Source: Flavobacteriales bacterium | GTDB lineage: Bacteria > Bacteroidota > Bacteroidia > Flavobacteriales_D > Crocinitomicaceae | DNA length: 44,896 nucleotides | Direction of reading: 5' to 3' | Assembly: GCA_947475275.1 (NCBI GenBank) | Contig: CANJNE010000001.1 | Location: 1 to 44,896, forward strand | In this document: positions 1,076-33,078 of the stretch, piece by piece | How the letters are laid out: every line of letters begins with the position of its first letter | Position numbering within the stretch: position 1 is the first letter of the stretch | The notes under the pieces: generated by a model | Databases searched by the model: none | The model's input: the letters and a program-made list of their open reading frames with translations, nothing else | What the model was told of the DNA's origin: nothing | Translations under genes and position numbers: made by a program

Positions 1076-2578
1076 TTATTTTTTATTGACCGGTAATTTT
1101 TGAACAACAAAAACCAATCCTTTTTTAAAATAATTGATGCTTTCTGGTTCCAATTTAAAGATATAAATTGGAACGCAAAATATGGCAACAAATATTATTA
1201 ACTGAACCGCCAAATCCAGCCAATCATTGGCAATCCAATCGTGAACAATGTAGCCTAAAAACAGAGTTATAAAAGCCAATACAATCATTAATATTTGATT
1301 CCAATTAAAAGGGTGTATTTTAAATGCAGCATACACAAAAATTAATCTACCAACATTATAGACAATTAGAGCAATTGAAGTTGAAATGGCGGCTCCTGGA
1401 ATTCCCCATATTGGAATAAAATAGAGATTTAAAACGAATACGCATACAATCAAAAATAAGGTAAACAAAATGTCGTATTTGTATTTTTTAGAGGTTGTAA
1501 AAATAGAACTGTTCAAACCACCATACATATCAATCAGACGCCCCATCATTAAAAAGAAAAACACCCATATTCCAGGTTGAAATTCAGGTTTTAAAAACCC
1601 AAACAGCAAATCAATATTCATCCAAATTACACAGAAAATAGCCAAACCAATGAAAAGCGAAACAGAACTTACTTTGGTGTACAACTCTTTCATTTTGTCC
1701 ATTTGACGGTGCTTCCAACAATCTGCAATCATTGGCGAACTAATTCTGACTAAGGACTTATACGGAACTTGCAGAGCGCTGGCCAAAAAGATAACTGTAC
1801 TGTATACACCTGTGGCCTTCAATCCTAACATTTGTGCAATCATCATGATATCCATTGAATTGACCAAAACGGTGCCCAATGTATTAATATAGTTAAAAGC
1901 AGAAAATTGAAATATTATTTTGCGAAAGCGTTTTGAAATATCAATGTGTTTGGGTGAAATATGTAGCTCTCCTAATCGATATAAATATGCAAGAAGTATC
2001 ATTGTTGGTAATACATAAATTAAACTCTGCAATGCAACGAATACATCAAAAGTCAGCCAACCAAAATACAACATGAATAGCAAGATGGTCATCGCCAATC
2101 TTAGTACAATTTCTAACGCAAAAACAGCGACAATATTCCTGTAAAAACTCCTAAGGTATATCTCAAGGACCATGAATAGCACATAGGCAATGCCTATAGG
2201 AATAATCCAATAATAATACTCAAGAAAAAGAGGCGATCGTATTTTATAAAGCTCAACAATTTGGGGTTGAAATATAAAGGTGGCAATCGAACATAAAAGA
2301 ATACCTAAACCTGAAATCAGCAACATCAGCAATAAAAAACCATGGTGTTTTTTAGATTCGTTTTTGAAAAACGGCAAAAATTTCCAGGTCGAATAAACAG
2401 TCCCTAAATTTGCAAATTGAGCGAAAAGTGTTCCTACAGATACAACAAGATTAACTAACCCTATTTGTTCTGTCGATAAAATTATTAGGAATAAAACCCC
2501 TTTATTAAGGTAACCAATGACGATTCCAAAATAAGAAATCATCATTGTACGAAAGGCATCTTTTTGGACTAATCCCAT
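1076..2578 (-). CDS. Wzx-like oligosaccharide flippase (MATE/MVF superfamily)
   Basis: This is a polytopic inner-membrane protein of about 500 residues with roughly 12-14 hydrophobic segments spread over its whole length and short charged loops. That is the architecture of polysaccharide biosynthesis/flippase proteins, which turn lipid-linked glycans across the inner membrane. It is divergent from the glycosyltransferase and pseudaminic acid genes, so the likely cargo is the glycan made there; this is inference from position. The start is uncertain: a TTG at 2623 and an ATG at 2599 are upstream in frame, but the ATG at 2578 begins a sequence (MGLVQKDAF) that leads directly into the first membrane segment. 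No strong ribosome binding site separates the options. Confidence 0.85.
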   Translation of the reverse strand: MGLVQKDAFRTMMISYFGIVIGYLNKGVLFLIILSTEQIGLVNLVVSVGTLFAQFANLGTVYSTWKFLPFFKNESKKHHGFLLLMLLISGLGILLCSIATFIFQPQIVELYKIRSPLFLEYYYWIIPIGIAYVLFMVLEIYLRSFYRNIVAVFALEIVLRLAMTILLFMLYFGWLTFDVFVALQSLIYVLPTMILLAYLYRLGELHISPKHIDISKRFRKIIFQFSAFNYINTLGTVLVNSMDIMMIAQMLGLKATGVYSTVIFLASALQVPYKSLVRISSPMIADCWKHRQMDKMKELYTKVSSVSLFIGLAIFCVIWMNIDLLFGFLKPEFQPGIWVFFFLMMGRLIDMYGGLNSSIFTTSKKYKYDILFTLFLIVCVFVLNLYFIPIWGIPGAAISTSIALIVYNVGRLIFVYAAFKIHPFNWNQILMIVLAFITLFLGYIVHDWIANDWLDLAVQLIIFVAIFCVPIYIFKLEPESINYFKKGLVFVVQKLPVNKK

Positions 2579-2642
2579 TGCATTATAACATTCGACCATG
2601 AAATTAAGTAAATTATTGCTCAAGAAAGCTAAAGGAATAATG

Positions 2643-2695: not shown

Positions 2696-3598
2696 ATGCT
2701 CAAAACTTCTATTATAATTTGCACCTACAATAGAGAGGCCTATCTTCCGAAGTGTCTAGAACATCTTCGATTACAAAACGCCGAACCTAAAAGTTTTGAA
2801 ATAGTCCTCATCAACAACAATTCAACGGATAATACAGACTCCATTTGTAAAGAATTTAAACAAAACAATCCCGATCTTAATATTACTTATGTTGTTGAAA
2901 CAACTCCTGGTCTTTCTGCCGCACGGAATTGTGGCATTGAAAATTCAAAAGGCGAAATTCTTTGTTTTATTGATGACGATGGTTTTGCAGTAGCTGAATA
3001 TGTCAAGATCATACAGAACTACGCAAATAATGAAGACTATACTGACTTTATTTCATTTGGAGGTAAAGTAATTCCATGTTACAATGAGGGAAAGGACCCG
3101 AAATGGTTGTCGAAATATATCGATGGTGTGGTTTCAAAGGTTGATTTGGGAGAACAAGTAAAAGATTTCGATAAAAAATACCCTGCAGGATGCAACATGA
3201 TTTTCAGAAGAAAATTCTTTGAAGAATATGGAGGATTTAATGCTGATTTGCATACAAGAGGAGACGACAAGTTTGTTTTTGATAAACTTAAAAAAGCGGG
3301 TCTAAAAACTTTGTACATTCCTGAACTCAAGGTCGAGCATTTTATTGACGATTATCGACTTGAAGCGACGTTCATAAAACGCCTTTCAAAAATTATTGGC
3401 CAAAGTGAGGCTATTCGACTTAGAAATGAATCCATTATTCTGAAAGTTTTAAAATTTGGTGAATACCTTTTTAAATTTGGTGCAGCTTGTATTCTAGGAT
3501 TAGGTTTTCTTTTTCAAGGAGCACCTGCAAAGACAAAATTCATTTTGATGGTGCGGTGGTATGTTATTCTGGGGTTCTTTATTAAATCGAAAATTTAA
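2696..3598 (+). CDS. Glycosyltransferase family 2
   Basis: This is a GT-A fold glycosyltransferase of 300 residues. The N-terminus has the typical SIIICTYNR strand, followed by an NNNSTDNT element and the metal- and nucleotide-sugar-binding acidic cluster DDD at residues 93-95. A further conserved acidic region (RGDD, about residue 188) precedes a probable acceptor-binding part. The C-terminus has one or two hydrophobic segments (about 255-295) that probably anchor it to the inner membrane. It is the first gene of the plus-strand run leading into the pseudaminic acid genes and is followed 11 bases later by the DUF115-like gene. The donor and acceptor sugars cannot be read from the sequence. 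Confidence 0.92.
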   Translation: MLKTSIIICTYNREAYLPKCLEHLRLQNAEPKSFEIVLINNNSTDNTDSICKEFKQNNPDLNITYVVETTPGLSAARNCGIENSKGEILCFIDDDGFAVAEYVKIIQNYANNEDYTDFISFGGKVIPCYNEGKDPKWLSKYIDGVVSKVDLGEQVKDFDKKYPAGCNMIFRRKFFEEYGGFNADLHTRGDDKFVFDKLKKAGLKTLYIPELKVEHFIDDYRLEATFIKRLSKIIGQSEAIRLRNESIILKVLKFGEYLFKFGAACILGLGFLFQGAPAKTKFILMVRWYVILGFFIKSKI

Positions 3599-3609
3599 GA
3601 ACTTTATTA

Positions 3610-4485
3610 ATGATGCTTAAATTCTTGAATAACATAGGAAAAACAGGACTATCGGTAATTAAATTGTTCTTCTTCACGAAATGGTTCGGATTGTTAAACC
3701 ATAGAACAAATAAAAAAACATGTCTGATATTAGGGAATGGCCCTACCCTATTAACAAGTATTGAAAAATATAAAAAATTAGGAACCAAGCTCGATCTATT
3801 TTGTGTAAACAACTTCGCATGCACATCGCAATACGAAGATCTTAAACCTGAATTCTATATTCTTCAAGCGCCACAATTTTTTCTAGATGATGACAAACTT
3901 TCGACGTTTTATATCGAACAGCGGCGAACGCTCTTTAACCACATCCAAACAAAAACAAATTGGGATATTTTTCTTGTGATACCCGTAAAGGCAAAAAAAT
4001 CAACTGCATTCAATCAGCTACTAGCTTCTAATGAACATTTAAAGCCATTGTACTTCAACGACACTGCAATTGAAGGATTTTCTTTCATTAAAAGATTTTG
4101 TTTCAATAATAGTTTAGGTATGCCGAGACCGCACAACGTATTGATTCCAAGCTTGATGAATGCAATAAATATTGGTTTTAAGGAAATCTATATCGTTGGC
4201 GCTGATCATTCTTGGTTAGGCGAAATCGCTGTTAACGATAAAAACGAAGCACTCGTGCATCAAAAGCATTTTTATGATGAGACAAGCTCAAAGCCTGAAA
4301 AAATGCAAGATTATATTCATAGGCCAAGGCGTTTGCATGAAATCATAAACAAATTTTATTTGACATTTCTCGGCTATTGGGAAATCAAGGAATATTCAGA
4401 AAAAAAAGGTGTTCACGTAATAAATGCCAGCGAAACTTCAATGATTGATGCTTTCGAAAGAAGAAGTTTGGAATCATTAAAATAA
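3610..4485 (+). CDS. DUF115/Maf-like Rossmann-fold protein, candidate glycosyltransferase
   Basis: This 291-residue protein has an N-terminal LILGNGPTL motif, then a segment ending in FCVNNFA and, near residue 190, a second Rossmann-like strand with YIVGADHSW. This pattern resembles DUF115/MptE-like proteins and more distantly the motility-associated factors (Maf) and GT42 sialyltransferases, which use a similar GNGPSL loop to bind a CMP-sugar. It sits directly before pseB. Maf proteins attach pseudaminic acid to flagellin in Campylobacter and Aeromonas, so a role in transferring Pse is plausible here, but that is inference. Two adjacent ATGs (3610 and 3613) are both possible starts. The domain assignment is by eye and moderately sure. 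Confidence 0.7.
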   Translation: MMLKFLNNIGKTGLSVIKLFFFTKWFGLLNHRTNKKTCLILGNGPTLLTSIEKYKKLGTKLDLFCVNNFACTSQYEDLKPEFYILQAPQFFLDDDKLSTFYIEQRRTLFNHIQTKTNWDIFLVIPVKAKKSTAFNQLLASNEHLKPLYFNDTAIEGFSFIKRFCFNNSLGMPRPHNVLIPSLMNAINIGFKEIYIVGADHSWLGEIAVNDKNEALVHQKHFYDETSSKPEKMQDYIHRPRRLHEIINKFYLTFLGYWEIKEYSEKKGVHVINASETSMIDAFERRSLESLK

Positions 4486-4486
4486 A

Positions 4487-4517
4487 TTGAACCACAAAAT
4501 TCTTTTTGGTATCTTTA
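4487..4517 (+). promoter_or_regulatory. Possible internal promoter upstream of pseB
   Basis: TATCTTTA at 4510-4517 differs from the TAnnTTTG -7 box only at the last base, and TTG at 4487-4489 lies 20 bases upstream. It would place transcription start a few bases before the GTG at 4535 and so fits the later pseB start. Evidence is weak. Confidence 0.22.
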
Positions 4518-4534
4518 CCCATCAAATTTTAAGC

Positions 4535-5545
4535 GTGAAAGACAAATCAATTCTAATTACCGGCGGAACTGGTTCTCTAGGAAAAGCATTAACGGCTCAC
4601 ATTTTAAAAAACCATCCTGAAGTCAAACGACTTGTTATTTTTAGCCGTGACGAACAAAAGCAGTTCGAAATGGAACAAGAATTTCCGCACAAAACTTATC
4701 CCCAAATACGCTATTTCATAGGTGACGTTAGGGACCAAGAACGACTGGAAAGGGCATTCACAGATATTGATTATGTTATTCACGCAGCTGCAATGAAACA
4801 TGTTCATATTGCAGAATACAATCCTGACGAATGTGTAAAAACAAATGTTGGAGGTGCTGAGAATGTAATTAAAGCTGCCTTAAAAACAAATGTAGAAAAT
4901 GTTGTTGCACTGTCAACAGACAAAGCTTGCGCACCAATTAACCTTTATGGCGCAACAAAATTAACCTCAGATAAGTTATTTGTTGCTGCAAACAATATAA
5001 AAGGAAAACAAAACATCAAGTTTTCTGTCGTTAGATATGGTAACGTGATGGGATCGAATGGTTCGGTAATTCCTTTTTTCATCAAAAAGAAAAAACAAGA
5101 CGGCGTACTACCGATTACTGTAGAAAGTATGACCCGTTTCAATATTACCCTTCAAGGTGGTGTAGACATGGTTATGCATGCTCTTAAAAATGCTTGGGGT
5201 GGAGAAATTTTTGTTCCGAAAATTCCTTCATACAAAATTACCGATGTTGCAGAGGCTATTGGTCCTAATTGCGAAAAACCTGTTATCGGAATTCGTCCTG
5301 GAGAAAAAATACATGAGGAAATGATTACCTCATCAGATTCCTTTTTCACATACGATCTCGGTAAATATTACGCAATAATACCTCAAACTCCACATTGGAA
5401 TGTGAATGAATTCACGAATTTTTTCAATGCTGTTAAAGTCGAGAACGGTTTTTCTTACAATTCATTGAATAATACCGAGTGGGAAAGTATTGATTCACTG
5501 AGAAACCTCATAAAATTACATGTCGATCCAACATTTGAAGTTTGA
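4535..5545 (+). CDS. pseB: UDP-N-acetylglucosamine 4,6-dehydratase (inverting), pseudaminic acid step 1
   Basis: PseB converts UDP-GlcNAc to the 4-keto-6-deoxy-L-arabino sugar, the entry step to pseudaminic acid. It is an extended short-chain dehydrogenase: the NADP-binding GGTGSLG motif is at the N-terminus, and the catalytic T-D-K / YGATK pair occurs in STDKA...NLYGATK. A longer frame begins with TTG at 4487, but GTG at 4535 gives MKDKSILITGG, the usual PseB N-terminus, and a length of 336 residues that matches the family. Its stop overlaps the ATG of pseC by one base (TGATG), indicating translational coupling. Identification is supported by the whole downstream gene set. Confidence 0.93.
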   Translation: MKDKSILITGGTGSLGKALTAHILKNHPEVKRLVIFSRDEQKQFEMEQEFPHKTYPQIRYFIGDVRDQERLERAFTDIDYVIHAAAMKHVHIAEYNPDECVKTNVGGAENVIKAALKTNVENVVALSTDKACAPINLYGATKLTSDKLFVAANNIKGKQNIKFSVVRYGNVMGSNGSVIPFFIKKKKQDGVLPITVESMTRFNITLQGGVDMVMHALKNAWGGEIFVPKIPSYKITDVAEAIGPNCEKPVIGIRPGEKIHEEMITSSDSFFTYDLGKYYAIIPQTPHWNVNEFTNFFNAVKVENGFSYNSLNNTEWESIDSLRNLIKLHVDPTFEV

Positions 5546-6732
5546 TGAATCCAATTCCATACGGTAGGCAAGAAATAACAAAGGAAGATATAGAAGCTGT
5601 TGTTGAAGCACTTCAATCCGATTATTTAACGCAAGGTCCGCTTATCAAAGCGTTTGAGGACCAGTTTGCATCTTATACCGGTGCAAAATACGCTGTGGCT
5701 TTGAGTAATGGGACAGCAGCGCTGCACCTTTCCGTAATGGCATTAGGAATTCAAAAAGACGAATACGTAATTTGTACTCCGCTCACTTTTGCTGCTTCGG
5801 TAAATTGTGTTAAATATTGTGGCGGAAATGTTTTGTTCGCAGATATCGATCCTGAAACTTACCTGATGGATCTTTCTCACGCAGATCAATTGATAAAAGC
5901 AAATCCCGATAAAAAAATTGTGGGTATTATTCCTGTTGATTTTGCTGGTCGTGTAGTTGATTTAAATGGATTTAGAGCATTTGCCGATAACAATAATTTA
6001 TGGTTACTAGAAGACGCATGTCATGCCCCGGGCGGCTACAATGAATCGAAAGATCAAACCGCAGGTGGAGGTGTAGCTGATTTATCTATTTTTTCATTTC
6101 ATCCTGTAAAGCACATCGCTACAGGTGAAGGAGGTATGATCACAACCAATGATAAAGATTTATATGAAAAATTGTTGGTGCTTCGAACCCATGGTATTAC
6201 TAGAAATGATGAACTTTTTCAAAATGATTTAGTCCTAGCAAATGGTAACGCAAAAGAAGACCATAATGATTATCCCGCTTGGTACATGGAAATGCAGGAG
6301 TTGGGATACAATTACAGAATTACTGATTTTCAGTCCGCATTAGGAATCTCTCAATTGAAAAGAGCAGATCAAAACCTGGAGAAACGAAAAGCTATCGCAA
6401 GTAAATATGTTTCAGCTTTAGCTGGACAAAAAGGGATTATTCGCATTCAAGCTTTTAATGAAGGACACGCATATCACCTTATGGTTTTGGAAGTAGAGGA
6501 CAGAAGAGGACTATATGATTATTTAAGAAAACAAAATATTTTTTGTCAAATTCATTATTTCCCGGTACATCTTATGCCTTATTACAAGCAATTTGGATGG
6601 AAGGAAGGTGATTTACCACATGCTGAAAAATACTATTCTCAATGCATTAGTATTCCAATGTTTCCGACATTGGCAATGACAGATGTCAACACTATTATCG
6701 AATTGATAAAAACCTATTACGATAACTTGTAA
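5545..6732 (+). CDS. pseC: UDP-4-amino-4,6-dideoxy-N-acetyl-beta-L-altrosamine transaminase
   Basis: PseC is the PLP-dependent aminotransferase that aminates C4 of the PseB product. The protein (395 residues) belongs to the DegT/DnrJ/EryC1 family. The PLP-binding Lys is residue 189 in the motif SFHPVKHIATGEGG, and the cofactor-contacting LLEDACHAPGG motif precedes it. The N-terminus IPYGRQEITKEDI is typical of PseC. The ATG at 5545 overlaps the pseB stop; an in-frame TTG one codon earlier is disregarded. The product goes to the acetyltransferase domain of the fused pseG-pseH gene downstream. Confidence 0.94.
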   Translation: MNPIPYGRQEITKEDIEAVVEALQSDYLTQGPLIKAFEDQFASYTGAKYAVALSNGTAALHLSVMALGIQKDEYVICTPLTFAASVNCVKYCGGNVLFADIDPETYLMDLSHADQLIKANPDKKIVGIIPVDFAGRVVDLNGFRAFADNNNLWLLEDACHAPGGYNESKDQTAGGGVADLSIFSFHPVKHIATGEGGMITTNDKDLYEKLLVLRTHGITRNDELFQNDLVLANGNAKEDHNDYPAWYMEMQELGYNYRITDFQSALGISQLKRADQNLEKRKAIASKYVSALAGQKGIIRIQAFNEGHAYHLMVLEVEDRRGLYDYLRKQNIFCQIHYFPVHLMPYYKQFGWKEGDLPHAEKYYSQCISIPMFPTLAMTDVNTIIELIKTYYDNL

Positions 6733-6742
6733 AAAATTTATA

Positions 6743-7372
6743 ATGTCACAAAACAATTTCAAAACTGAACAAGAAGCTTTTTGGGCTGGGGAATTTGGAA
6801 ACGAATACATTGGTCGCAATAATAGCGAACAACTTTTAGCTTCGAATTTGCACCTTTTCAGTTCGGCATTAAAACAATTGGGAAAGCTGGAAACTTGTGT
6901 TGAATTTGGCGCCAACATTGGAATGAATCTAAAAGCATTGCAGATGTTGTATCCTGGAGTTCACATGCAAGGAATTGAAATCAATTCAACAGCTGCTTCA
7001 GAACTTGCCCAAGTTATAGGTGAAGAAAACGTTCACAATTGCTCTATTTTTGATGTTGATTTGAACCAAAAGGCAGAATTGTCTTTCATTAAAGGTGTAC
7101 TCATTCATATCAATCCGGAGCATTTGCAAAATGTTTATGAGAAACTCTATACCTCTTCAGAAAAATTCATTTTAATAGCTGAATATTACAACCCATCACC
7201 TGTAGCAATTCCTTATAGAGGGCACATGGATAGACTTTTTAAAAGAGATTTTGCTGGAGAAATGCTAGATAGGTATCCTGATTTAGAATTGGTAGATTAT
7301 GGATTCGCTTATCGTCGCGACCCAGCATTTCCTCAGGATGATATCACTTGGTTCTTGATGCGAAAAAATTGA
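6743..7372 (+). CDS. Pseudaminic acid biosynthesis-associated methylase (SAM-dependent)
   Basis: This is a 209-residue class I methyltransferase-like protein. The N-terminal EQEAFWAGEFG...YIGRN segment is characteristic of the methylase family found in pseudaminic acid clusters (TIGR03587). The SAM-binding loop is CVEFGANIGMN, and a later GVLIHINPEHL segment corresponds to the post-I motifs. It lies 10 bases after pseC and 6 bases before pseF, in the same operon. It probably methylates Pse, a Pse derivative or a neighbouring glycan residue; the exact substrate is unknown for the family. Confidence 0.85.
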   Translation: MSQNNFKTEQEAFWAGEFGNEYIGRNNSEQLLASNLHLFSSALKQLGKLETCVEFGANIGMNLKALQMLYPGVHMQGIEINSTAASELAQVIGEENVHNCSIFDVDLNQKAELSFIKGVLIHINPEHLQNVYEKLYTSSEKFILIAEYYNPSPVAIPYRGHMDRLFKRDFAGEMLDRYPDLELVDYGFAYRRDPAFPQDDITWFLMRKN

Positions 7373-7378
7373 TTTCAA

Positions 7379-8068
7379 ATGAAAATTGCCATCATACCTG
7401 CAAGAGGTGGAAGCAAGAGAATTCCTAATAAGAATATTAAATTGTTCCATGGCAAACCCATTATTGCATACGCAATTGAAAATACGCTTAATTCAGGATT
7501 ATTTGATGAGGTATTTGTTTCAACAGACGATTTAAAAATTGCCGAAATTGCGCAAAATCTGGGTGCAACAGTCCCTGTTTTTCGTTCTTCTGAAAATGCA
7601 GACGATTTTGCAACCACATCTGACGTACTGATTGAAGTATTGGAGTATTATAATGGGTTAGGTCTAAAACTACAAACAGCTTGTTGTATTTATCCTACTA
7701 CGCCTTTGTTAACGCCAATTGATTTAATCGCTGCCAATGATATTTTTTACAAAGAAAAATACGATGTGCTATTGTCCTGCGTTGCTTTCGATTCTCCGAT
7801 ACAAAGAGCATTTGAGTTAAATACTGCATCGGAAGTCATTTTAAGAGAACCACAGTTCATCAATATGCGTTCACAAGATCTTCCTAAGACCTATCACGAT
7901 GCAGGAGCATTTTATTTTTTTGATGTGAATACATTTCTTCAAAATAGGTCACTTTGGCTAGGTAGGATTGGCGCTCACCCCCTACCTGATTCAAAAGTTC
8001 AAGATATTGATACCCTCGAGGATTGGAAATTGGCAGAAATAAAATTCCAACTTCTAAATAATGAATAG
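7379..8068 (+). CDS. pseF: Pseudaminic acid cytidylyltransferase
   Basis: PseF activates pseudaminic acid with CTP to give CMP-Pse, the donor for transferases. The nucleotide-binding motif PARGGSKRIPNKNIK occupies residues 7-21, as in NeuA/PseF. A YPTTPLL segment and the DAGAFYFF motif further on fit PseF; the latter distinguishes it from many NeuA enzymes. Length (229 residues) is normal. Its last 8 bases overlap the start of the pseG-pseH fusion, so translation is probably coupled. It acts in the cytoplasm as the last biosynthetic step, after PseI. Confidence 0.94.
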   Translation: MKIAIIPARGGSKRIPNKNIKLFHGKPIIAYAIENTLNSGLFDEVFVSTDDLKIAEIAQNLGATVPVFRSSENADDFATTSDVLIEVLEYYNGLGLKLQTACCIYPTTPLLTPIDLIAANDIFYKEKYDVLLSCVAFDSPIQRAFELNTASEVILREPQFINMRSQDLPKTYHDAGAFYFFDVNTFLQNRSLWLGRIGAHPLPDSKVQDIDTLEDWKLAEIKFQLLNNE

Positions 8069-9512
8069 GCTAATAGTTTTAACAGCTGGAAATTCAATAA
8101 TAGGATTTGGACATATCGTAAGATGCCAAGCATTAGTTTCGCAACTAAGAAATATTAATGCGACATTTTATTCCACAGAAGATTTGTCCGCAATCATTCA
8201 AAATGAAGCAAATCAAAATTTAAGTTTTCAGCAACTGAACCGATTTGATGACATATTGCCATTGATTTCTGAAAATGACATTGTTTTAATCGATCACTAT
8301 GAAATTTCCAACAATCTTATTATTTCTTTAAAATCGAGAGCGTCTGGTATAATATTCATCGATGATATTGCCGAAAGGTTTTTCTATGCTGATCTTATTT
8401 TAAACCCAACTCCTGGATTTGATATTTTCAAATATCGAGGTTTATTGGATACGCAATTTCTTATTGGAATTGAATATGCATTACTGCGTCAGCCTTTTCA
8501 AGAGCTTGCAAAGCAAACAAAACAGGTTAATGATAAAAACATCATGATTTGCTTTGGAGGGTCCGATCCTAACAACCTAACAGAAAAGGCTTTAATTAAT
8601 GTTCTTGAATTCAATTTTTTTGACGAAATCAATGTTGTAATGGGTTCGGGATACCAGCATTTTGAAAGACTTAGCGAAGCATTCATTTCGGATAGCATTC
8701 ATTTTTATAAAAATTTGAATGCACAGGAAATGGCGGTTTTGATGTCTTCAAATGCGTATGCCATTTATCCGTGCAGTGGAATTTTGTTAGAAGGTTTGGC
8801 GGCAAAGCAAAAAATAGTTTCAGGTTACTATATTGACAATCAAAAATACGTTTATCAGCTGCATAAAAAATTAGGTAGTTTCTTTGATGCAATATCATTT
8901 GGAAAAAGTGACCTTCAACACGCCATTGAACAAATGATAACAAATAAACACACAAATTCTTCGAATCATTTGATAGATGGTAAATCCATTCAACGCATTC
9001 AAAAACATATCGATGTGCTTTTCGAAATGCAAAAGTTTAACATTCGGAATGCAATTCAAGAAGATGTTGAGGTTACTTTTTCATGGGCAAATGATCCTGA
9101 GACTCGAAAATTTTCATTTTCAAAAGATAAGATCTTGTGGGATTCACACTTTAATTGGTTCATGAACAAAATCAATTCTGAAAATTGTATTTATTTAATC
9201 CTCGAAAAAGACACCCATCCTATTGGAAGCATACGCTTTGACCTGAAAGACGGTGATGCTTTAATAAGCTATCTCATCGCCCCGTTAAATCATGGTAAAG
9301 GGTATGGAACTATTCTTCTTAAAAAAGGATTACAATATATAGAAAACCTTCAGGGACATAGCAAATTCAAAACCGTAACCGGAATCGTTCAGGAGGAAAA
9401 TATTGCATCAATAAAAACCTTTGAACGCTTTGGATTTGAGGAAGTGAAAGAAAACGGTAACTTTGTTTTTACAAAACACTTCATTAAAGATGATGAAAAT
9501 TGGAAATCGTGA
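8061..9512 (+). CDS. pseG: Bifunctional PseG UDP-sugar hydrolase / PseH-like N-acetyltransferase fusion
   Basis: Two enzymes are joined in one 483-residue chain. Residues 1 to about 320 are PseG, a GT-B-like hydrolase that removes UDP from the diacetamido-altrose intermediate: GFGHIVR with the expected catalytic His18, CFGGSDP (164-170) and the CSGILLEGL loop are present. Residues 326-483 are a GNAT acetyltransferase with the acetyl-CoA loop NHGKGYGT (410-417), matching PseH, which acetylates the 4-amino group just before PseG acts. No separate pseH is present in the locus, so the fusion supplies both consecutive steps. The frame is continuous through the junction near base 9024. The 3' end overlaps pseI by about 20 bases. 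Confidence 0.92.
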   Translation: MNRLIVLTAGNSIIGFGHIVRCQALVSQLRNINATFYSTEDLSAIIQNEANQNLSFQQLNRFDDILPLISENDIVLIDHYEISNNLIISLKSRASGIIFIDDIAERFFYADLILNPTPGFDIFKYRGLLDTQFLIGIEYALLRQPFQELAKQTKQVNDKNIMICFGGSDPNNLTEKALINVLEFNFFDEINVVMGSGYQHFERLSEAFISDSIHFYKNLNAQEMAVLMSSNAYAIYPCSGILLEGLAAKQKIVSGYYIDNQKYVYQLHKKLGSFFDAISFGKSDLQHAIEQMITNKHTNSSNHLIDGKSIQRIQKHIDVLFEMQKFNIRNAIQEDVEVTFSWANDPETRKFSFSKDKILWDSHFNWFMNKINSENCIYLILEKDTHPIGSIRFDLKDGDALISYLIAPLNHGKGYGTILLKKGLQYIENLQGHSKFKTVTGIVQEENIASIKTFERFGFEEVKENGNFVFTKHFIKDDENWKS

Positions 9513-10530
9513 AATCGGAACAGGACATCCTGTTTTTATCATTGCTGAACTTTCTGCGAATCATAATGGCAGCATAGATACAGCAATAGAAACCATTCGC
9601 GCTGCTAAAAGGTCAGGAGCCGATGCAATTAAATTGCAATCTTATACTGCTGATACCATCACTTTGAAATGCGATAAAGACGACTTTAAAATAAAAGGAA
9701 CTTTATGGGATGGTAGGTATCTTTACGATTTGTACCAAGAGGCCTATACGCCATGGGAATGGCATAAAGTCCTTTTCGATGTTGCCGAAGAAGAAGGGTT
9801 GCTATGTTTTTCGTCACCTTTTGACAAAAGTGCGGTTGATTTTTTGGAAAATATCAATTGTCCTGCCTACAAAATTGCATCCTTTGAAATCACAGATATT
9901 CCATTAATTGAATATGTTGCCTCTAAAGGAAAGCCTGTAATTATTTCAACTGGAATTGCAAGCTTAGAGGATATTCAATTAGCTGTAAATACATGCTTAA
10001 AAGCTGGAAACAATCAAATCGCGCTTTTGAAATGTACATCGAGTTACCCTGCACCTATCAATGAGGCCAATATGGTCATGGTTAAACGCTTGGCGGATGA
10101 TTTTAATGTAATCTCAGGTTTATCTGATCATACGATGGGGAGCACTGTTCCAATTGTATCGGTTTGTTTTGGCGCAAAAATAATTGAGAAACACTTTATT
10201 TTAGACCGCTCATTGGGAGGCCCTGACGCTACATTCTCAATGAATGAAAGTGAATTTACAGAAATGGTTAAGGCTGTTCGTGAAGCAGAATCTGCTATTG
10301 GAATTGAAAGCTATGAATTGACTAAAAAACAAGAAGAAGGAAAAGTTTTTTCGCGATCATTATACATCAGCAAGGACATTAATGCTGGGGAAATTCTTTC
10401 AGAAGAGCACATAAAATCGGTCCGCCCAGGAATGGGTTTACATCCAAAATATTACAATGAAATTTTAGGCAAGCAAGTCAAGCGAGATTTGACTATCGGT
10501 GAGCGAATCGAATTAAAAGATCTGAATTAA
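9493..10530 (+). CDS. pseI: Pseudaminic acid synthase
   Basis: PseI condenses 2,4-diacetamido-2,4,6-trideoxy-L-altrose with phosphoenolpyruvate to make pseudaminic acid. It is a NeuB-family TIM-barrel enzyme: IIAELSANHNG near the N-terminus, GADAIKLQSYTADTITL, the LKCTSSYPAP segment and GLSDHTMG are family hallmarks, and GADAIKLQ with TADT is typical of PseI. The C-terminal part (from about residue 285) is a SAF/antifreeze-like domain ending in VRPGMGLHPK. The frame extends to a TTG at 9463, but the ATG at 9493 (or 9490) gives the normal N-terminus MKIGNREIG. It is the last gene of the operon and converges on the YfhO gene with a 6-base gap. Confidence 0.95.
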   Translation: MKIGNREIGTGHPVFIIAELSANHNGSIDTAIETIRAAKRSGADAIKLQSYTADTITLKCDKDDFKIKGTLWDGRYLYDLYQEAYTPWEWHKVLFDVAEEEGLLCFSSPFDKSAVDFLENINCPAYKIASFEITDIPLIEYVASKGKPVIISTGIASLEDIQLAVNTCLKAGNNQIALLKCTSSYPAPINEANMVMVKRLADDFNVISGLSDHTMGSTVPIVSVCFGAKIIEKHFILDRSLGGPDATFSMNESEFTEMVKAVREAESAIGIESYELTKKQEEGKVFSRSLYISKDINAGEILSEEHIKSVRPGMGLHPKYYNEILGKQVKRDLTIGERIELKDLN

Positions 10531-10536
10531 ATTCTT

Positions 10537-13329
10537 TTACGACTTAACGATTTCGTTTTTATTGTCTCCATTTAAGTAATTCTTCAAATGCATTCCGAGA
10601 ATTCCAAAAAGTGCCAGTAACAAGCTTATAGAACCAATTAAGGCATAGGTACTTCCTTTTGTATATGTTTCCGGTTCAAATCGCCATTCGATTGCATGTT
10701 TACCTGCAGGAACTAAAACAGATCTTAGGATATAATTCGCTCTAAAATAGTCGCTTTTCTTGCCGTCAATGTAGCAATTCCAGCCTTCGGGATAATAAAT
10801 TTCACTGAATACAACCGGTGCGGCTACTTTGCTATTGGATTCATATTTTAACAGATTTGTCTTATAGTCTAATAAACGAACAGTGGCTGTGCTGTCTTTA
10901 TCATATGTAGATTTTATACTTCCTGCGATTTTTGAAAATGCCTTTTGATCAACTACAAGCGCATTTTTAGTATCTAACTTGGCTAAAGCAGCCATTTCCT
11001 GATCAGCATTGTTCACTTTATTGACATAAGTTACAAACCAAGCGTTTCCATTTGCACTTGCATTGACAAAAGGTTTTTTATCAGGGTTGTGCATCAGGTA
11101 CTTCGCGTTCAGCATATTCAAAACGGGTGTATTCAAATTAGTCTTGATAGCATCTAAATCACAATTATTGAAATATCCTTGTACAAATTGATTGCGTTGA
11201 TTTGGATCTTGAATTGAATTGGCTTGCATTACAATTTCCGGAGATCCATTAACAGCTGCCTGAAATAATGAATTTTGTGCATCACCTAATTCTTTAGCAA
11301 TATAGAAATCAATCAATTCTTGAAAACGCCTCATTTTTGCGCCTTGATAACCACCTATACTTTTGTGAAAGTAACTCGTGTAAGTCTCATTAAACGGATT
11401 TTGGAAAGACATTACGCGATAATCCGCATTTAGATTGAGTACCCCAAATGCTGCCAATTCACTTTTAGTATCTTTATTTTTAATTGTAGCATAAACTACA
11501 CTTTCGTCCATTTTCTTGAGATAAGTATCCACCTTTTCATCGAATTTTGCCACATTACTTTTTTCCAAGTCAAGAATAAACATATCGGCTGGTCGGACAG
11601 GATAAGGTGTTGATGCTTTATCTTTCGATTGATAAGATTTATAGGTAGAACCTTTTTTATCACTATTTAGATATCTTCTGGCCACTGATAGATTGTCTCC
11701 AGTTACAATTAAAATAGCTAGAGCAGTTAAAACAGTTGTTGTTAATGCTGAAGCTTTTAAGTATAAATAAGCAAGAACAATTGCGCAGGCCACAAAAATT
11801 AAACCTAGCATTTTTAATATTTCTGTTTGATAAATTCCTGTTCTTGTCGCAATCAATTCAGATTGTAATCCATCAAGAAATGACATTTCTTCTGGATTGT
11901 TCTTAACTTTTGAAGCATATTGTTCAAATTGCAATACCTCATCATCTTTCATGAAAGAGCCAGAAATTGATGGCATAGCGTAAAGAATCAATCCCACGAG
12001 AATTAGGCCTGAAGCCACTATTAAAAACTTCTTCTTATCAAAGGTATAAAGCCCTTCCCTTTTAAAAAGTTTATCGAGAAATAAAATGCCTAAAGCCGGA
12101 ATAATTACTTGCATAAGCACGAGAATCATTTTACTATCTCGAAAGGCATTGTACATTGGGAATTTATGAATAAAGAAGGCATTCAATCCACTTGGATCTT
12201 TAGATGCAAGCGCCGCAGCTAAAAGAAAAATCGCTAAAAAAGCCCATTTGATTGGATCTTTAAGAAATATTAGACCGAAAATAAAGAAGACGAACATCAC
12301 AATACCAAAGTAAAAAGCACCTCCACTCATTTTCTGACCTCCCCAATATTTATCCATTTGTGCAATTTGCTCACGGTAGTTTCGGTCAACTTTTTTCATC
12401 ACAGCTTTGTCATCTCCCAGAGCAGCATTATTGCCACCTTTGGCGTTAGGTGCAACTATTGATAAAATTTCTCCGGAACCATAATTATATTCCAAAATAT
12501 AGTCTTCTGGCAAACCCTGTTGCTGAAGTTCCTTTCCCTCTGCCGGTTTAGTTAACTCAGTATTTCCTCTTGTTGAATAAGGTTTATATTCCGACATCAC
12601 CATTAAGTAACCTATGTTAGGTAATATCCCAAGGAACACTCCCAGCAATAAACCACCTACAACTTTACCAAGGTAAATAAACTCTTTTCTTAAGAGCAGT
12701 CTGACACCTTCAACGCAAGCAACAGCAAAAAGTAAAAACGCTAAATAGTAGGTCATTTGAGGATGTCCTGCCATGATATTAAGTCCAAAAAACAAGGCAA
12801 ACAAAACACTACCAAAGAGCCATTTTCCGCGAAAAGCCAAAATCATTCCACCTAAAGTCGGCGCCATATATGTTATCGCTAAAACTTTTGTGACGTGTCC
12901 GGCTCCGATGTAAAGAATATGAATCGTTGAAAGACCAAAAGCCAAGGAACCTAGCAATCCAAGCCATGGATTTACTCTCAGACAAAGGGCAAAAATATAA
13001 AACCCGAGCATTGCCAAAAACATCAATCCTACAGGTTTGGGTAGTCCCAACATGAGAAACTGATTGACAACTGACAGGTAATTATTTGGGTATAGTGTTG
13101 AAATTGCATAGGAAGGCATTCCACCAAAAATTCCATTTGTCCAAAGGGATTCTTCCCCGTTAATCATTCTGAAATCTTCAATTTCTCTTGACATTCCACG
13201 ATATTGCTGAATATCTCCTTGAATGAGTTCATTCCCTTGGAATGCAGGTAAGAAATACAAACTGGAAACGATTACGAAAGAAACAATTGCAACAATGTGC
13301 GGTAACAAGGCTTTGAAGTTGATTTTCAT
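10537..13329 (-). CDS. YfhO-family multi-spanning membrane protein
   Basis: This is a 930-residue inner-membrane protein. An N-terminal membrane segment is followed by an extracytoplasmic loop with GIFGGMPSYA, then about a dozen membrane segments to around residue 540, a large soluble domain of about 330 residues, and a final membrane segment near the C-terminus. The soluble part contains the FSEIYYPEGWNCYIDGK segment characteristic of YfhO (PF09586). Members are predicted GT-C-type glycosyltransferases; in Bacillus and Listeria homologues are needed for lipoteichoic acid glycosylation. Here it lies tail-to-tail with the Pse locus, so a role in envelope glycan decoration is possible but unproven. 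Confidence 0.88.
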   Translation of the reverse strand: MKINFKALLPHIVAIVSFVIVSSLYFLPAFQGNELIQGDIQQYRGMSREIEDFRMINGEESLWTNGIFGGMPSYAISTLYPNNYLSVVNQFLMLGLPKPVGLMFLAMLGFYIFALCLRVNPWLGLLGSLAFGLSTIHILYIGAGHVTKVLAITYMAPTLGGMILAFRGKWLFGSVLFALFFGLNIMAGHPQMTYYLAFLLFAVACVEGVRLLLRKEFIYLGKVVGGLLLGVFLGILPNIGYLMVMSEYKPYSTRGNTELTKPAEGKELQQQGLPEDYILEYNYGSGEILSIVAPNAKGGNNAALGDDKAVMKKVDRNYREQIAQMDKYWGGQKMSGGAFYFGIVMFVFFIFGLIFLKDPIKWAFLAIFLLAAALASKDPSGLNAFFIHKFPMYNAFRDSKMILVLMQVIIPALGILFLDKLFKREGLYTFDKKKFLIVASGLILVGLILYAMPSISGSFMKDDEVLQFEQYASKVKNNPEEMSFLDGLQSELIATRTGIYQTEILKMLGLIFVACAIVLAYLYLKASALTTTVLTALAILIVTGDNLSVARRYLNSDKKGSTYKSYQSKDKASTPYPVRPADMFILDLEKSNVAKFDEKVDTYLKKMDESVVYATIKNKDTKSELAAFGVLNLNADYRVMSFQNPFNETYTSYFHKSIGGYQGAKMRRFQELIDFYIAKELGDAQNSLFQAAVNGSPEIVMQANSIQDPNQRNQFVQGYFNNCDLDAIKTNLNTPVLNMLNAKYLMHNPDKKPFVNASANGNAWFVTYVNKVNNADQEMAALAKLDTKNALVVDQKAFSKIAGSIKSTYDKDSTATVRLLDYKTNLLKYESNSKVAAPVVFSEIYYPEGWNCYIDGKKSDYFRANYILRSVLVPAGKHAIEWRFEPETYTKGSTYALIGSISLLLALFGILGMHLKNYLNGDNKNEIVKS

Positions 13330-22164: not shown

Positions 22165-23601
22165 TTATGGAATTTTCAATGTCTGTCCTATTTTGATCAT
22201 GTCACTTTTCAGACCATTTTTAGACTTAATTTTAGTTACAGTAGTTCCATATTTTTTTGCAATTCCAGAAAGGGTATCTCCTTGTTTAACTTTATATGTT
22301 TTGGTGGTTTTGGCTGCTGATGTTCCAGCCGATTGGGTTGTTTTCGGTTTTTCAAAGGTTACTAAATCATAGGATTTTGTTGGAACATTTATTAGCAAAG
22401 CGTTATCCACTTTACAATTGTTATAGGTGTTTAAAATAGATTTGTAAATCCAATATCCCTTTAATTCATATCCTTTATCCGTAAGGTGAATATAATCTGA
22501 CTGTGCATAACCTTTTTCATTCCATGTTTTGATAGTGCCGAGCCCACCTGATAAATCATACCAATTCCAGAAGAGACAGTGTTGCTCCTCCGCTATAGAG
22601 TCAATTAAATTTCGGAAAATTGGGCCAGCAGTTATGTAGTTGCCTTTATAGTTCAAATCTTGAACCGATGTTAGGACAATAAGTACATCTGGATTTACAT
22701 CTCTAAAATTTTTTATGGCTGTTCGGATTTGATCTGATAGCTTACCATCAATAGCGTTTGTATATAATATATCATTGGTGCCAAAATCTAAAATCACAAT
22801 ATCCGGATTTAGCATTTTAGCCTGTTCTGGCATTTTTTCTAATTGCAATACAGATTTAAATGGAGCAGCTCCAACTCCTAAAGAATGGTATACAACGCCT
22901 CCAGTTGAAGTCTTTTCAATCGACAAACCGTAAAAAGGAAATTTTTTAGCTATTGGATTGCCATCTGTTAATTTTAACTGCAAGGAACTAATCTCTCCAG
23001 AGTAATTGAACCGGATGGCATTTTCTTCAATTTTATTGTCATTCAAATGAAAAACAAAAACACTGGTATCTATAGTGAATTGAAAATCAAAAAGCGCTGA
23101 ATCAGCATCAGTGAAAATGGTAATTTCGTAGTCATCTTTTGGGATAGGTGATTTGAATTTAAAATTTAGCTCTGCACCAATTGTATTTCCTTCAACAGCC
23201 ATTCCGCAAATACCAAGTGGTATTTTTGGCGAAGTTTGATAACTTTTAGCAAATTTCCATGTCCCTTTGTAAGTTGAACTGTAATTAATGGAAGAATAAG
23301 TATCTGCAGCACCATAATTGAAGACCATTCCGTAGCCACCATCACCAAAATAATTTTGCAACCTTTTTCTTGCTATACTTGTTGGGCGCTCCGCTTGAAT
23401 ATGACTTCCACCGTAGTGAAAGATTACCAATTCATCATTTTTAATATTGTCAATATGGTTTACCAGTTGCTGTCCTAGTGTTGAATCATAGAACTGCAGA
23501 AAGGCATAAGTTGAATCAATCTTTAATTCTGCGGGAATTTGCGAAACAAACGATGAAACAGAACCAAGAATAATCGCAAAAAGTAAACCTAATCCTCTCA
23601 T
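22165..23601 (-). CDS. Secreted SGNH/GDSL hydrolase with C-terminal LysM domain
   Basis: This 478-residue protein has a signal peptide (about 1-20). The SGNH blocks are present: block I reads GGSH with nucleophile Ser66 (Gly replaces the usual Asp of GDSH), block III is GTND (274-277), and block V is SDYIH with D369 and H372. A linker rich in Thr, Ala and Lys (410-435) leads to one LysM domain (436-478) with GDTLSGIAKKYG, which binds peptidoglycan or related GlcNAc polymers. Its ATG overlaps the stop of the DHHW gene (ATGA). By context it may acetylate or deacetylate the polymer handled by the MBOAT/DHHW pair at the cell wall. Confidence 0.9.
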   Translation of the reverse strand: MRGLGLLFAIILGSVSSFVSQIPAELKIDSTYAFLQFYDSTLGQQLVNHIDNIKNDELVIFHYGGSHIQAERPTSIARKRLQNYFGDGGYGMVFNYGAADTYSSINYSSTYKGTWKFAKSYQTSPKIPLGICGMAVEGNTIGAELNFKFKSPIPKDDYEITIFTDADSALFDFQFTIDTSVFVFHLNDNKIEENAIRFNYSGEISSLQLKLTDGNPIAKKFPFYGLSIEKTSTGGVVYHSLGVGAAPFKSVLQLEKMPEQAKMLNPDIVILDFGTNDILYTNAIDGKLSDQIRTAIKNFRDVNPDVLIVLTSVQDLNYKGNYITAGPIFRNLIDSIAEEQHCLFWNWYDLSGGLGTIKTWNEKGYAQSDYIHLTDKGYELKGYWIYKSILNTYNNCKVDNALLINVPTKSYDLVTFEKPKTTQSAGTSAAKTTKTYKVKQGDTLSGIAKKYGTTVTKIKSKNGLKSDMIKIGQTLKIP

Positions 23602-24950
23602 TGCTTTAAAGTATCTTCAATTAATGGTTGTACCAATATTTCCTTTGGCAATATGGTATCTGTAGGGTTTTGTTTCACAGGTTTTGGAGCTGGAGGTCCT
23701 TTTTGGGTTGCCAAATTTCTAATTCGGTTTATAGTACCATTACTCATTGCTGCATACATACCTACAGCAAAAATAAGATCATCTACCTCATTGGTTACCA
23801 TTAAATCTGTTAAATTTTGATAGGCATATCTAAAGTCCATTACCCAAATTTCTTCATAATGGCTCACCAAATAAACTGTGAATGCGTTACCCATTGAATT
23901 TTTAATGACACAAGCTTTTCTACCATTTTTAACTCCGGTAGTAATTTTAATTAAAGGAATGTCACCACAAAGGAAAGTACTGTATGTGTTTCCTCCTGAA
24001 CATGAATTACAGAAGACTTGACTTTTTGACCCTTTATATCCTGTTTTTCCGTATCGTATTGCGGAAGTTTTAACTCTTGGAATAAAATACTCCATTGTAT
24101 CTGGATTATTTCTTACACTAGGGTCTCTGGTGTGTTGATAGAGTGATCCTAAAAATTTGTATTTCACACGTCTATCCATATTTTCAAGAGGCACGGGTTG
24201 GAAGCCTGCTGACTTGCAGAAAGCTACATAAGCATAATAGGCTCCTTTAGCATTCCAATGGTGATCGGTACTAAAAAACATTTTTTCGTTAACGTGATTG
24301 TTCATTTCACCCAACACATCACTAAAAATAGCTCCATTGGTTAAACTATTACCAATTGCTTGAAGCGTTGCCCTATTCTTACCATTGTAATGTTTGTATT
24401 TCTCAGCAGGTATAAATGCTGAAGATAGCGGTGCCACACAAGAAAAAACTCGAGTCTTTGGTCCTAAATTAGCAGCATACTGGCTTACCATTTTTGCAAA
24501 TACCCGACCCATTTTAGGACTTCCCCCGTTAAGTGGAAAAACACTTCCATCAAGAATAAGCATACTTCCTGAATAGGCCTCTTCAAAGTCATCGAGGAAA
24601 TTCATATTGGTATCAAGAGGCATCCCTTCTTCATCAAAAGCTTCATTTTCTTTTTTTGATTTCTTTTGGGAAACAAAAATTTTCTCCTGATCCTTAAAAT
24701 GCAGTCCTTTCTGATATTTCAACCAATCTGCGAACTCTACACATTTATCTCTTGCCGGAAAATGATCGTTGATATATAAATCTACACTATCAGCCCAGGA
24801 TCCATTAATATATCCTTGCCATGTCAAATTTGGGAAAGTCGCTAATCTTCGTTTTTCATCTTCAGAAATTTCTTTAGGTGGAATTAGAAAAAATGAAGAT
24901 AATCCTCCAGCGAGCATCAATAAAAATAATATGACATTAATCCGATGCAT
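23598..24950 (-). CDS. DHHW/AlgX-J-like protein, putative periplasmic O-acetyltransferase
   Basis: This 450-residue protein has a single N-terminal membrane anchor (about 4-24) and a periplasmic SGNH-like domain. The signature STDHHWNAKGA (DHHW at 229-232) supplies the catalytic Asp/His, as in AlgX, AlgJ and DHHW-family proteins; the likely Ser is in KNSMGNAF further on. The C-terminus is Pro-rich and of low complexity. The frame extends one codon to a TTG, but the ATG at 24950 overlaps the TGA of the MBOAT gene (TGATG), indicating coupling. It probably receives acyl groups passed through the MBOAT protein and transfers them to an exported polysaccharide. Confidence 0.88.
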   Translation of the reverse strand: MHRINVILFLLMLAGGLSSFFLIPPKEISEDEKRRLATFPNLTWQGYINGSWADSVDLYINDHFPARDKCVEFADWLKYQKGLHFKDQEKIFVSQKKSKKENEAFDEEGMPLDTNMNFLDDFEEAYSGSMLILDGSVFPLNGGSPKMGRVFAKMVSQYAANLGPKTRVFSCVAPLSSAFIPAEKYKHYNGKNRATLQAIGNSLTNGAIFSDVLGEMNNHVNEKMFFSTDHHWNAKGAYYAYVAFCKSAGFQPVPLENMDRRVKYKFLGSLYQHTRDPSVRNNPDTMEYFIPRVKTSAIRYGKTGYKGSKSQVFCNSCSGGNTYSTFLCGDIPLIKITTGVKNGRKACVIKNSMGNAFTVYLVSHYEEIWVMDFRYAYQNLTDLMVTNEVDDLIFAVGMYAAMSNGTINRIRNLATQKGPPAPKPVKQNPTDTILPKEILVQPLIEDTLKQ

Positions 24951-32906: not shown

Positions 32907-33078
32907 TTTTCAATGTTTAAAGTTTAAAATTAAAGAATGTAGCGGAATAAGGGCGTATAAAAGTCCGGAATAAAAGCAGAATTGAATAATCTATGGAAGA
33001 ACAAAACAGCTCTAAGAAAAAATTAAATCCATTTTTGTAATCGAAAGTTTATAATTTAAGGCAACCATTTGTTTGATA

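Follow-up and report, generated by a model that had tools for sequence, protein, structure and literature searches.

The window (the whole 44,896-nucleotide stretch of DNA analysed) contains what is probably a pseudaminic acid (Pse) glycan cassette, in which a single-domain MptE-like protein would act as a CMP-Pse transferase onto a lipid-linked, non-flagellar glycan. The plus-strand run at positions 2696-10530 comprises, in order, a GT2 gene, the MptE-like/DUF115 gene, pseB, pseC, a methylase gene, pseF, a pseG-pseH fusion and pseI, and the features in and around it are:

1076..2623, minus strand: Wzx-like polysaccharide flippase, transcribed away from the Pse run (PF01943, 38.3 bits); a conserved neighbour within the genus
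2696..3598, plus strand: GT2 glycosyltransferase adjoining the MptE-like gene (PF00535, 110.1 bits)
3610..4485, plus strand: MptE-like/DUF115, Maf-core-like protein, the proposed CMP-Pse transferase (PF01973, 30.9 bits, short of the curated Pfam threshold of 34.6; AlphaFold2 pLDDT 93.2; best fold match Maf 5mu5)
4487..5545, plus strand: PseB, inverting UDP-GlcNAc 4,6-dehydratase (TIGR03589, 497 bits; cut-off 407.75)
5542..6732, plus strand: PseC aminotransferase (TIGR03588, 441.9 bits; cut-off 423.5)
6743..7372, plus strand: Pse-associated methylase (TIGR03587, 290.2 bits; cut-off 112.05)
7379..8068, plus strand: PseF, CMP-Pse synthetase (TIGR03584, 272.4 bits; cut-off 205.7)
8061..9512, plus strand: PseG hydrolase fused to a PseH-type GNAT acetyltransferase (TIGR03590, 150.2 bits, below the cut-off of 153.55; TIGR03585, 54.7 bits, below the cut-off of 93.1; PF13302, 57.1 bits)
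9463..10530, plus strand: PseI, pseudaminic acid synthase (TIGR03586, 513.9 bits; cut-off 340.25)
10537..13329, minus strand: membrane protein resembling YfhO, which closes the cassette slot at its far end (PF09586, 25.2 bits, under the cut-off of 28.5)

All four of PseB, PseC, PseF and PseI exceed their curated NCBIfam cut-offs; the PseG and PseH parts of the fused ORF score under theirs, so that both assignments rest on gene order too. A similar fused ORF occurs in the relatives G005, G009, G018, G021, G023 and G025. The NCBIfam and Pfam families bear out the first-pass annotation, which had placed the Pse pathway genes together in one plus-strand run; its list was right for the Pse genes but overlooked the methylase, and the GT2 gene also lies in the range. 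By the listed starts, neighbouring genes are separated by 1-11 bp or overlap. Two of these starts are probably too early: that of pseB is probably GTG 4535, 49 bp past the MptE-like gene (homologue alignments begin at residue 17), and that of pseI probably ATG 9490, several homologues aligning from residue 10 or 11 and others from 1 or 2.

Around the run, the flippase gene occurs in 38 of the 60 genomes compared (own one counted), including some devoid of PseI, and therefore marks the slot rather than Pse. The YfhO-like gene, present in 57 of the 60, was not taken as evidence of a part in the Pse machinery. A collagen-like protein is also encoded in the window, where no tRNA genes were found; scans of the window gave 35 promoter sites (41.2 expected) and 0 terminators (7.0 expected).

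The MptE-like protein has 291 amino acids. The PF01973 model that it approaches is that of Maf_flag10 (PMC11339370), and at E 0.001 it matched no NCBIfam family, thus not the BFO_1060 family NF046086 either. The top fold match of its AlphaFold2 model was the catalytic domain of Maf (5mu5; Foldseek E 7.7e-07; Z 13.2 over 202 residues), only residues 256-510 of the 632 in that chain being matched. Other matches included SteA (Z 11.3), the MptE pterin diphosphokinase (8sd5, the M. jannaschii HPPK; Z 10.7) and the sialyltransferases Cst-I and Cst-II (Z 10.2-11.2), the Z of MptE and SteA lying within ~2.5 of that of Maf. The structural check for a pterin enzyme suggested in the first-pass annotation thus gave a divided answer: Maf is the top match, but the fold is also that of MptE, so that the fold alone is not decisive and gene context decides.

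At the sequence level, we built a profile from alignment A2, whose 58 rows are the window protein and 57 of 61 representatives. Near-copies with >80% identity (including L113) and the short L091 had been removed beforehand, and the fused proteins L100, L103 and L115 were omitted together with L104, which contains X. Against PDB sequences, the two best matches of this profile were Cst-II (whole-sequence E 0.0045) and Cst-I (E 0.021), the third being unrelated (E 1.4); an earlier 7-sequence profile had found a single unrelated match (E 0.15). The profile aligns with Cst over N-G-P-S-L and, scoring only 4-5 bits there, over G-Y-K-x-I-Y-L-x-G-x-D. All 58 rows of the alignment retain His200 and His220, candidates for a catalytic His of the GT42 kind; Asn43 and Asn67 are also invariant. 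A quick tree was made from 82 rows, without L091, with the X letters of one row deleted and every row truncated at 310 residues.

With Maf as the best fold match, a true Maf glycosylating flagellin has to be considered, but this reading, already disfavoured, is barely credible. We detected no match to flagellin (PF00669) in the own genome, which is 95% complete and by its kin belongs to Crocinitomicaceae, and none to the flagellar rod family PF00460 in any of the 60 genomes, own included, with searches that were each positive in 4 of 14 control genomes; the initial presumption of a non-flagellated lineage is thus supported. In addition, Maf has N-terminal and C-terminal domains around its core (PMC11339370), and these outer domains are absent here (291 versus 632 residues). 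The name Maf is not supported for the protein, as only the central catalytic domain is present, and, being a Maf/GT42-type core without the outer domains, it largely dissolves the puzzle of a Maf without flagella. The contrast initially drawn between Pse and the lack of flagella is likewise weaker, since Pse is already known from flagella-free Bacteroidota: it has been reported from Cellulophaga fucicola as part of the O-polysaccharide (PMC3210612) and from Tannerella forsythia as part of the S-layer O-glycan (PMC6120980, PMC6388019). The operon is therefore ordinary, and the new part is the transferase family.

No relative emerged when genome contigs were scanned with the MptE-like sequence alone, but a profile scan confirmed 144, of which the best 80 were kept for locus counts. 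Among these 80, which are not independent of one another and belong to a family seeded from mostly nonulosonate-linked members, a NeuB-family synthase was found in 65 loci, always within 7 kb, and in 37 of the 41 loci having at least 7 kb on both flanks, compared with 0 of 18 control stretches (a small set, 20 kb each, from three genomes). The clusters beside these best 80 of 144 relatives were of the Pse (31), KDN (29), Leg (1) or other NeuB type (8), with no nonulosonate cluster in reach in 11. L064 is a clean counterexample, having none despite ~10 kb on either side, and no NeuB gene was found near a distant MptE-like match in G032. Cytidylyltransferase matches occurred in 70 of the 80 loci, a count that takes in weak matches in Saprospiraceae GT2-type ORFs and one KdsB-like gene, so that the NeuB count is safer; in 4 of the 80, the MptE-like protein was fused to a cytidylyltransferase. 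Of the 80 loci, 47 contained a GT2 match, which in 42 directly adjoined the MptE-like gene, and 24 contained a flippase gene. Gene order varies: the MptE-like gene lies downstream of pseI in G056, and an ORF with a T9SS tail separates it from pseB in G025.

This context bears on the possibility that the protein is a pterin diphosphokinase of the MptE type, or another nucleotide enzyme, with an incidental Pse neighbourhood. The shared fold and the name of the Pfam family speak for it, but the NeuB linkage relative to the control stretches, the cytidylyltransferase fusions, a PF01973 score below the curated cut-off and the separate canonical HPPK, above its cut-off, already encoded in the own genome make it very unlikely. 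By contrast, CMP-nonulosonates are well supported as the donor class of the MptE-like protein, and its specificity for Pse is likely. The original proposal of a DUF115/Maf-like nonulosonate transferase with a non-flagellar acceptor thus remains, given the fold and the NeuB linkage, the best reading of this gene, although the acceptor is putative.

The protein might also use a CMP-nonulosonate in another way, for instance as a transferase of Kdo or Pse to the lipid A core or as a CMP-sugar hydrolase, Pse being transferred by the product of a gene elsewhere. One relative (L065) adjoins what was judged by eye to be a KdsB-type CMP-Kdo synthetase, and for one Maf the use of Kdo has been reported (PMC11339370). 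Nevertheless, we consider such a role unlikely, because adjacency tracks Pse, KDN and Leg gene sets and because an exchange of genes at the slot before pseB fits a nonulosonate transfer step.

This exchange appeared in the 60-genome comparison, which shares contigs with the locus set (the 80 include contigs of G002, G018, G023 and G025). At E 1e-60, a limit that misses weaker NeuB genes such as one beside the BFO_1060-type gene of G033, a NeuB-type synthase was detected in 17 genomes; 7 of these carried the MptE-like gene, compared with none of the 43 others (one-sided Fisher p 5e-5), or 1 of those 43 with the weak G032 match counted (p 3e-4). Instead of the MptE-like gene, kin genomes carry, in the slot ahead of pseB, a transferase of the family named after BFO_1060, which we take to be the counterpart of GtfS. 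PseI of at least 51% identity occurs in 14 genomes, 6 of them with the MptE-like gene, 6 with a BFO_1060-type gene, none with both and two (G010, G049) with neither. The two were together in 0 of the 60 genomes, and the swap statistic (p 0.009) assumes independent genomes, which these are not. Four BFO_1060-type proteins tested scored 411-421 bits on NF046086 (cut-off 200); of three compared with Pfam, only one had a match (PF04464), and those of G005 and G021 differ by 2%. We dropped the TagB domain described in SpsB as support for the swap: Leg transfer in B. subtilis reportedly does not require SpsB (PMC7439481), so that a domain of the TagB type is by itself no proof. In a phylum sample of 198 genomes, 131 contained the NeuB family but just one, that of the window, the MptE-like family (at E 1e-20), indicating that most nonulosonate makers manage without it.

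We propose that PseB, PseC, PseH, PseG, PseI and PseF would convert UDP-GlcNAc to CMP-Pse, with the methylase probably altering it. The MptE-like protein, of GT42/Maf-core type, would then, in the cytoplasm, move Pse from CMP-Pse to a sugar of a glycan that is linked to a lipid and may be started or extended by the GT2 enzyme next door. Once turned over by the flippase, this glycan would be displayed on a surface glycan, such as an O-glycoprotein or O-antigen, and not on flagellin. A protein O-transferase with Maf-like chemistry, attaching Pse in the cytoplasm directly to Ser/Thr of a secreted non-flagellar protein, would agree with the Maf core fold, the T9SS-tail ORF of G025 and the collagen-like protein of the window. 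We regard it as improbable, since the frequency of adjoining GT2 genes and of flippases among the best 80 of 144 relatives suits a lipid-linked oligosaccharide, and Bacteroidota glycans are reported to be assembled on a lipid carrier before periplasmic transfer (PMC12871550).

The occurrence of relatives beside other sialic-acid-like pathways points to a little-studied transferase family. On balance, we lean towards a separate family of single-domain CMP-nonulosonate transferases across Bacteroidota and Ignavibacteriota that would share a Maf/Cst core and work in Pse, KDN and Leg pathways; some members are fusions with a CMP-sugar synthetase, and the family would form a module exchanged with the BFO_1060 type at one slot that sets the surface glycan of the strain. 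We call it undescribed on the basis of open-access literature searches: no paper there joined pseudaminic acid and DUF115, the papers listed for DUF115 apparently include none on nonulosonates, 'MptE-like' was absent among the matches listed, 6-hydroxymethylpterin with sialic acid gave one Campylobacter coli paper, and no paper on BFO_1060 was found. Nonulosonate synthase genes are common in Bacteroidota, but knock-out proof of a transferase in this phylum is given, in the available parts of the sources, for the Tannerella enzyme GtfS and its Leg counterpart alone. Given its donor-linked context, a second, unrelated family would make it easier to predict from sequence the sialic-acid-like sugar that a glycan receives, would show what proteins annotated as MptE-like/DUF115 do when they come from neither archaea nor flagellated bacteria, and would supply small single-domain enzymes for Pse- and KDN-glycan synthesis.

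Among known systems, the Maf flagellin glycosyltransferases (Maf_flag10, pfam01973) share the catalytic core fold and a position beside pse genes, but here we find one domain, without the N-terminal Rossmann-like and C-terminal helical ones, with GT2 and flippase neighbours and no flagellin detected. The GT42 enzymes Cst-I and Cst-II resemble it in fold and in the profile-aligned N-G-P-S-L and G-x-D stretches; the sequence similarity is only marginal and the context here is one of Pse, KDN or Leg genes. Cellulophaga fucicola likewise offers a flavobacterial genus with Pse in a surface polysaccharide, the chemistry of which is known, no transferase being named in the available part of the source (PMC3210612). 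GtfS of Tannerella forsythia and the BFO_1060 family (NF046086, GT-B/TagB-like) share with it the proposed role in nonulosonate transfer and the setting, a glycan locus of flagella-free Bacteroidota that also contains wzx and pse genes. The MptE-like protein belongs to a different family, GtfS being reported to have a GT-B fold, and it is the BFO_1060 type that occupies the same slot in sister genomes.

ORF and family searches confirmed the compact gene run that the first-pass annotation had placed at window positions 2696–10530; the Pse genes that it listed were right, and it had left out a methylase and a GT2 gene. PseB, PseC, PseF, PseI and the methylase exceeded their NCBIfam cut-offs. PseG and PseH form one fused ORF, with PseG slightly below its NCBIfam cut-off and PseH far below.

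1076–2623, divergent from the run: flippase gene, behind the end of an alaS-like gene (the latter read by eye)
2696–10530, plus strand, single run, in order: GT2 glycosyltransferase, MptE-like/DUF115 protein, PseB, PseC, Pse-associated methylase, PseF, PseG-PseH fusion, PseI
10537–13329, minus strand: YfhO-like gene

The lineage had been presumed non-flagellated, and the search for flagellar genes agreed: this 2.68 Mb assembly of 183 contigs, 95% complete, had no flagellin match, and none of 60 genomes, this one included, matched the flagellar rod family; each search was positive in 4 of 14 control genomes. Since Pse is known in Tannerella and, according to PMC3210612, in the O-polysaccharide of Cellulophaga fucicola, such an operon is nothing unusual in a lineage without flagella. 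The point of interest is the transferase, not the operon.

AlphaFold2, run on an alignment of 58 family members, predicted the structure of the MptE-like protein with a mean pLDDT of 93.2 and a pTM of 0.91. Foldseek ranked the flagellin glycosyltransferase Maf first (PDB 5mu5, E 7.7e-07), followed by human ST8SiaIII and M. jannaschii HPPK, and VIA-align gave Z-scores of 13.2 for Maf (202 residues, Maf residues 256–510), 11.3 for SteA, 11.2 for Cst-I, 11.0 for Cst-II and 10.7 for HPPK. The Maf likeness seen in the first pass thus held as the top match, but the pterin enzyme HPPK and SteA have the same fold; that it is common to MptE and SteA counts against a transferase, and by the predicted fold alone sialyltransferases and pterin enzymes cannot be told apart. 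In a PDB search with the family sequence profile, Cst-II and Cst-I came out as the top two chains, with marginal E-values. Asn67, His200 and His220 are invariant in all 58 rows of the alignment and Asn43 is found in 57, the other row having a gap; in Cst-II, Asn9, Asn31 and His188 are presumably important. Because the Maf match is confined to residues 256–510, the MptE-like protein is a Maf/Cst core without the outer domains of Maf described in PMC11339370.

A profile scan with motifs of the MptE-like family only yielded 144 confirmed loci, the best 80 of which came from Bacteroidota and related phyla. A NeuB-family synthase gene occurred in 65 of these best 80, always within 7 kb (in 37 of the 41 whose flanks reach 7 kb or more to either side), and in none of 18 control stretches of 20 kb. 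By gene content, 31 of the best 80 were Pse loci, 29 KDN-type, one Leg and eight other NeuB, with 11 having none; the KDN label is based on the KDN-9-phosphate phosphatase model NF058599 in two representatives, both above the cut-off of 180 (L120, 254.2; L067, 185.4), the others being labelled by similarity. In 22 of the 80, the distance from the end of the MptE-like gene to the start of the PseB match ranged from a 19 bp overlap to a 108 bp gap, and a GT2 match adjoined the MptE-like gene directly in 42. Four of the 80 encode the MptE-like domain fused to a cytidylyltransferase domain, a fusion that points to a CMP-sugar substrate more strongly than any other single observation. On a quick tree, labels changed 8 times for Pse (25.9 in shuffles) and 5 times for KDN (24.2), low counts that are partly owed to shared ancestry; one Pse locus within a KDN clade (L105) looks like a change of donor.

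Other loci point the opposite way. Two with long flanks lack NeuB (L064, L065) and two have PseB and PseC with no NeuB in reach (L059, L070), all counting against a transferase; the weakest MptE-like genome match (G032) also has no NeuB nearby. As the profile seeds were mostly nonulosonate-linked, distant family members may differ. The family is rare: in a phylum sample of 198 genomes it was found, at E 1e-20, only in this genome, and NeuB in 131.

In Saprospiraceae loci L077, L080, L083 and L086, ORFs directly before the MptE-like gene have an apparent GT2 domain and a weak cytidylyltransferase-like tail. Two Pse-type clusters contain, besides a normal PseI match, a 592–593 aa ORF (L041, 6218–7996; L050, 11945–13726), which in L041 joins a NeuB to a cytidylyltransferase domain (PF03102 + PF02348).

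The 60 genomes, this one included, allowed a comparison among the 14 with PseI of at least 51% identity. Six have the MptE-like gene (this genome, G018, G023, G025, G045, G056), six others a protein of 463–471 aa (G005, G009, G021, G028, G029, G035), and G010 and G049 neither; no PseI genome has both (0/14; p 0.009 under independence). The MptE-like gene is also present in a seventh genome, G002, together with a Leg-type cluster, and in a seventh genome with the longer protein, G033, the gene of that protein lies beside a weaker NeuB match. Across all 60, the MptE-like gene was associated with a NeuB-type synthase (Fisher p 5e-5). Four of the longer proteins, from G009, G021, G029 and G035, were compared with the NCBIfam model for the 'BFO_1060 family glycosyltransferase' (NF046086, cut-off 200) and scored 411–421 bits; we take BFO_1060 to be the counterpart of the Tannerella Pse and Leg transferases. 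The gene of the longer protein is the neighbour of pseB in five of its six genomes, G028 having it on a separate contig, and the MptE-like gene is the neighbour of pseB in four of its six; one slot is thus filled by two unrelated proteins, as expected if both did the same step. The Tannerella Pse transferase GtfS is reported as GT-B type (PMC6120980), and the Pse and Leg transferases as TagB-domain enzymes (PMC7439481) with sialyltransferase motifs and knock-out proof (PMC6388019).

The MptE-like protein probably represents a second nonulosonate transferase family in Bacteroidota. What the analysis shows is the gene content, the fold, the linkage and the swap; in the most likely mechanism, CMP-Pse would be made in the cytoplasm and perhaps methylated, the GT2 and MptE-like proteins would build a Pse-bearing glycan on a lipid carrier, the flippase would turn it over, and its final carrier would be a protein or lipid A-core. 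Further window features include:

22165–23601: GDSL/LysM protein
24950–26344: MBOAT O-acyltransferase, near the former (stretch 22165–26344)
33073–34899: TPR repeats joined to a catalytic domain of adenylate/guanylate cyclase type (PF00211, 183 bits)
41364–42665: T9SS CHU_C protein, adjoining the next
42677–44011: collagen-like protein (PF01391, 91.9 bits; Gly-Pro-Thr type repeats)

The last two are, speculatively, surface glycoproteins, and the MBOAT and GDSL/LysM pair might fit glycan O-acetylation. GC content is 51% in kilobase 43001–44000 and 31–41% in the rest of the window.

The interval between alaS-flippase and yfhO varies within the genus. It holds Pse genes, GT2 and the MptE-like gene in this genome, G018, G023 and G025; Pse genes, GT4 and the BFO_1060-type gene in G005, G009 (fetched stretch without the alaS end) and G021; and a Leg set (LegC, NeuC and NeuB models above cut-off), GT4 and the MptE-like gene in G002. 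In G006, G014 and G017, BLAST with the chosen nonulosonate genes found no match in the cassette. On shorter contigs, G001 and G007 have Leg-like genes, GT4 and another protein of 491–494 aa beside the flippase. Such a protein occupies the transferase slot of Leg-like clusters (L165, 4259–5743; L166, 4273–5748), had no Pfam or NCBIfam match in L165 and is a candidate third transferase type. In G025, a protein whose C-terminus is a T9SS sorting domain lies between the MptE-like gene and pseB (L010, 10063–11505). Together with the flippase, the interval appears to form a strain-specific glycan locus, comparable in plan to the Bacteroidota O-glycosylation loci described in PMC12871550, although those end at metG and this one at alaS.
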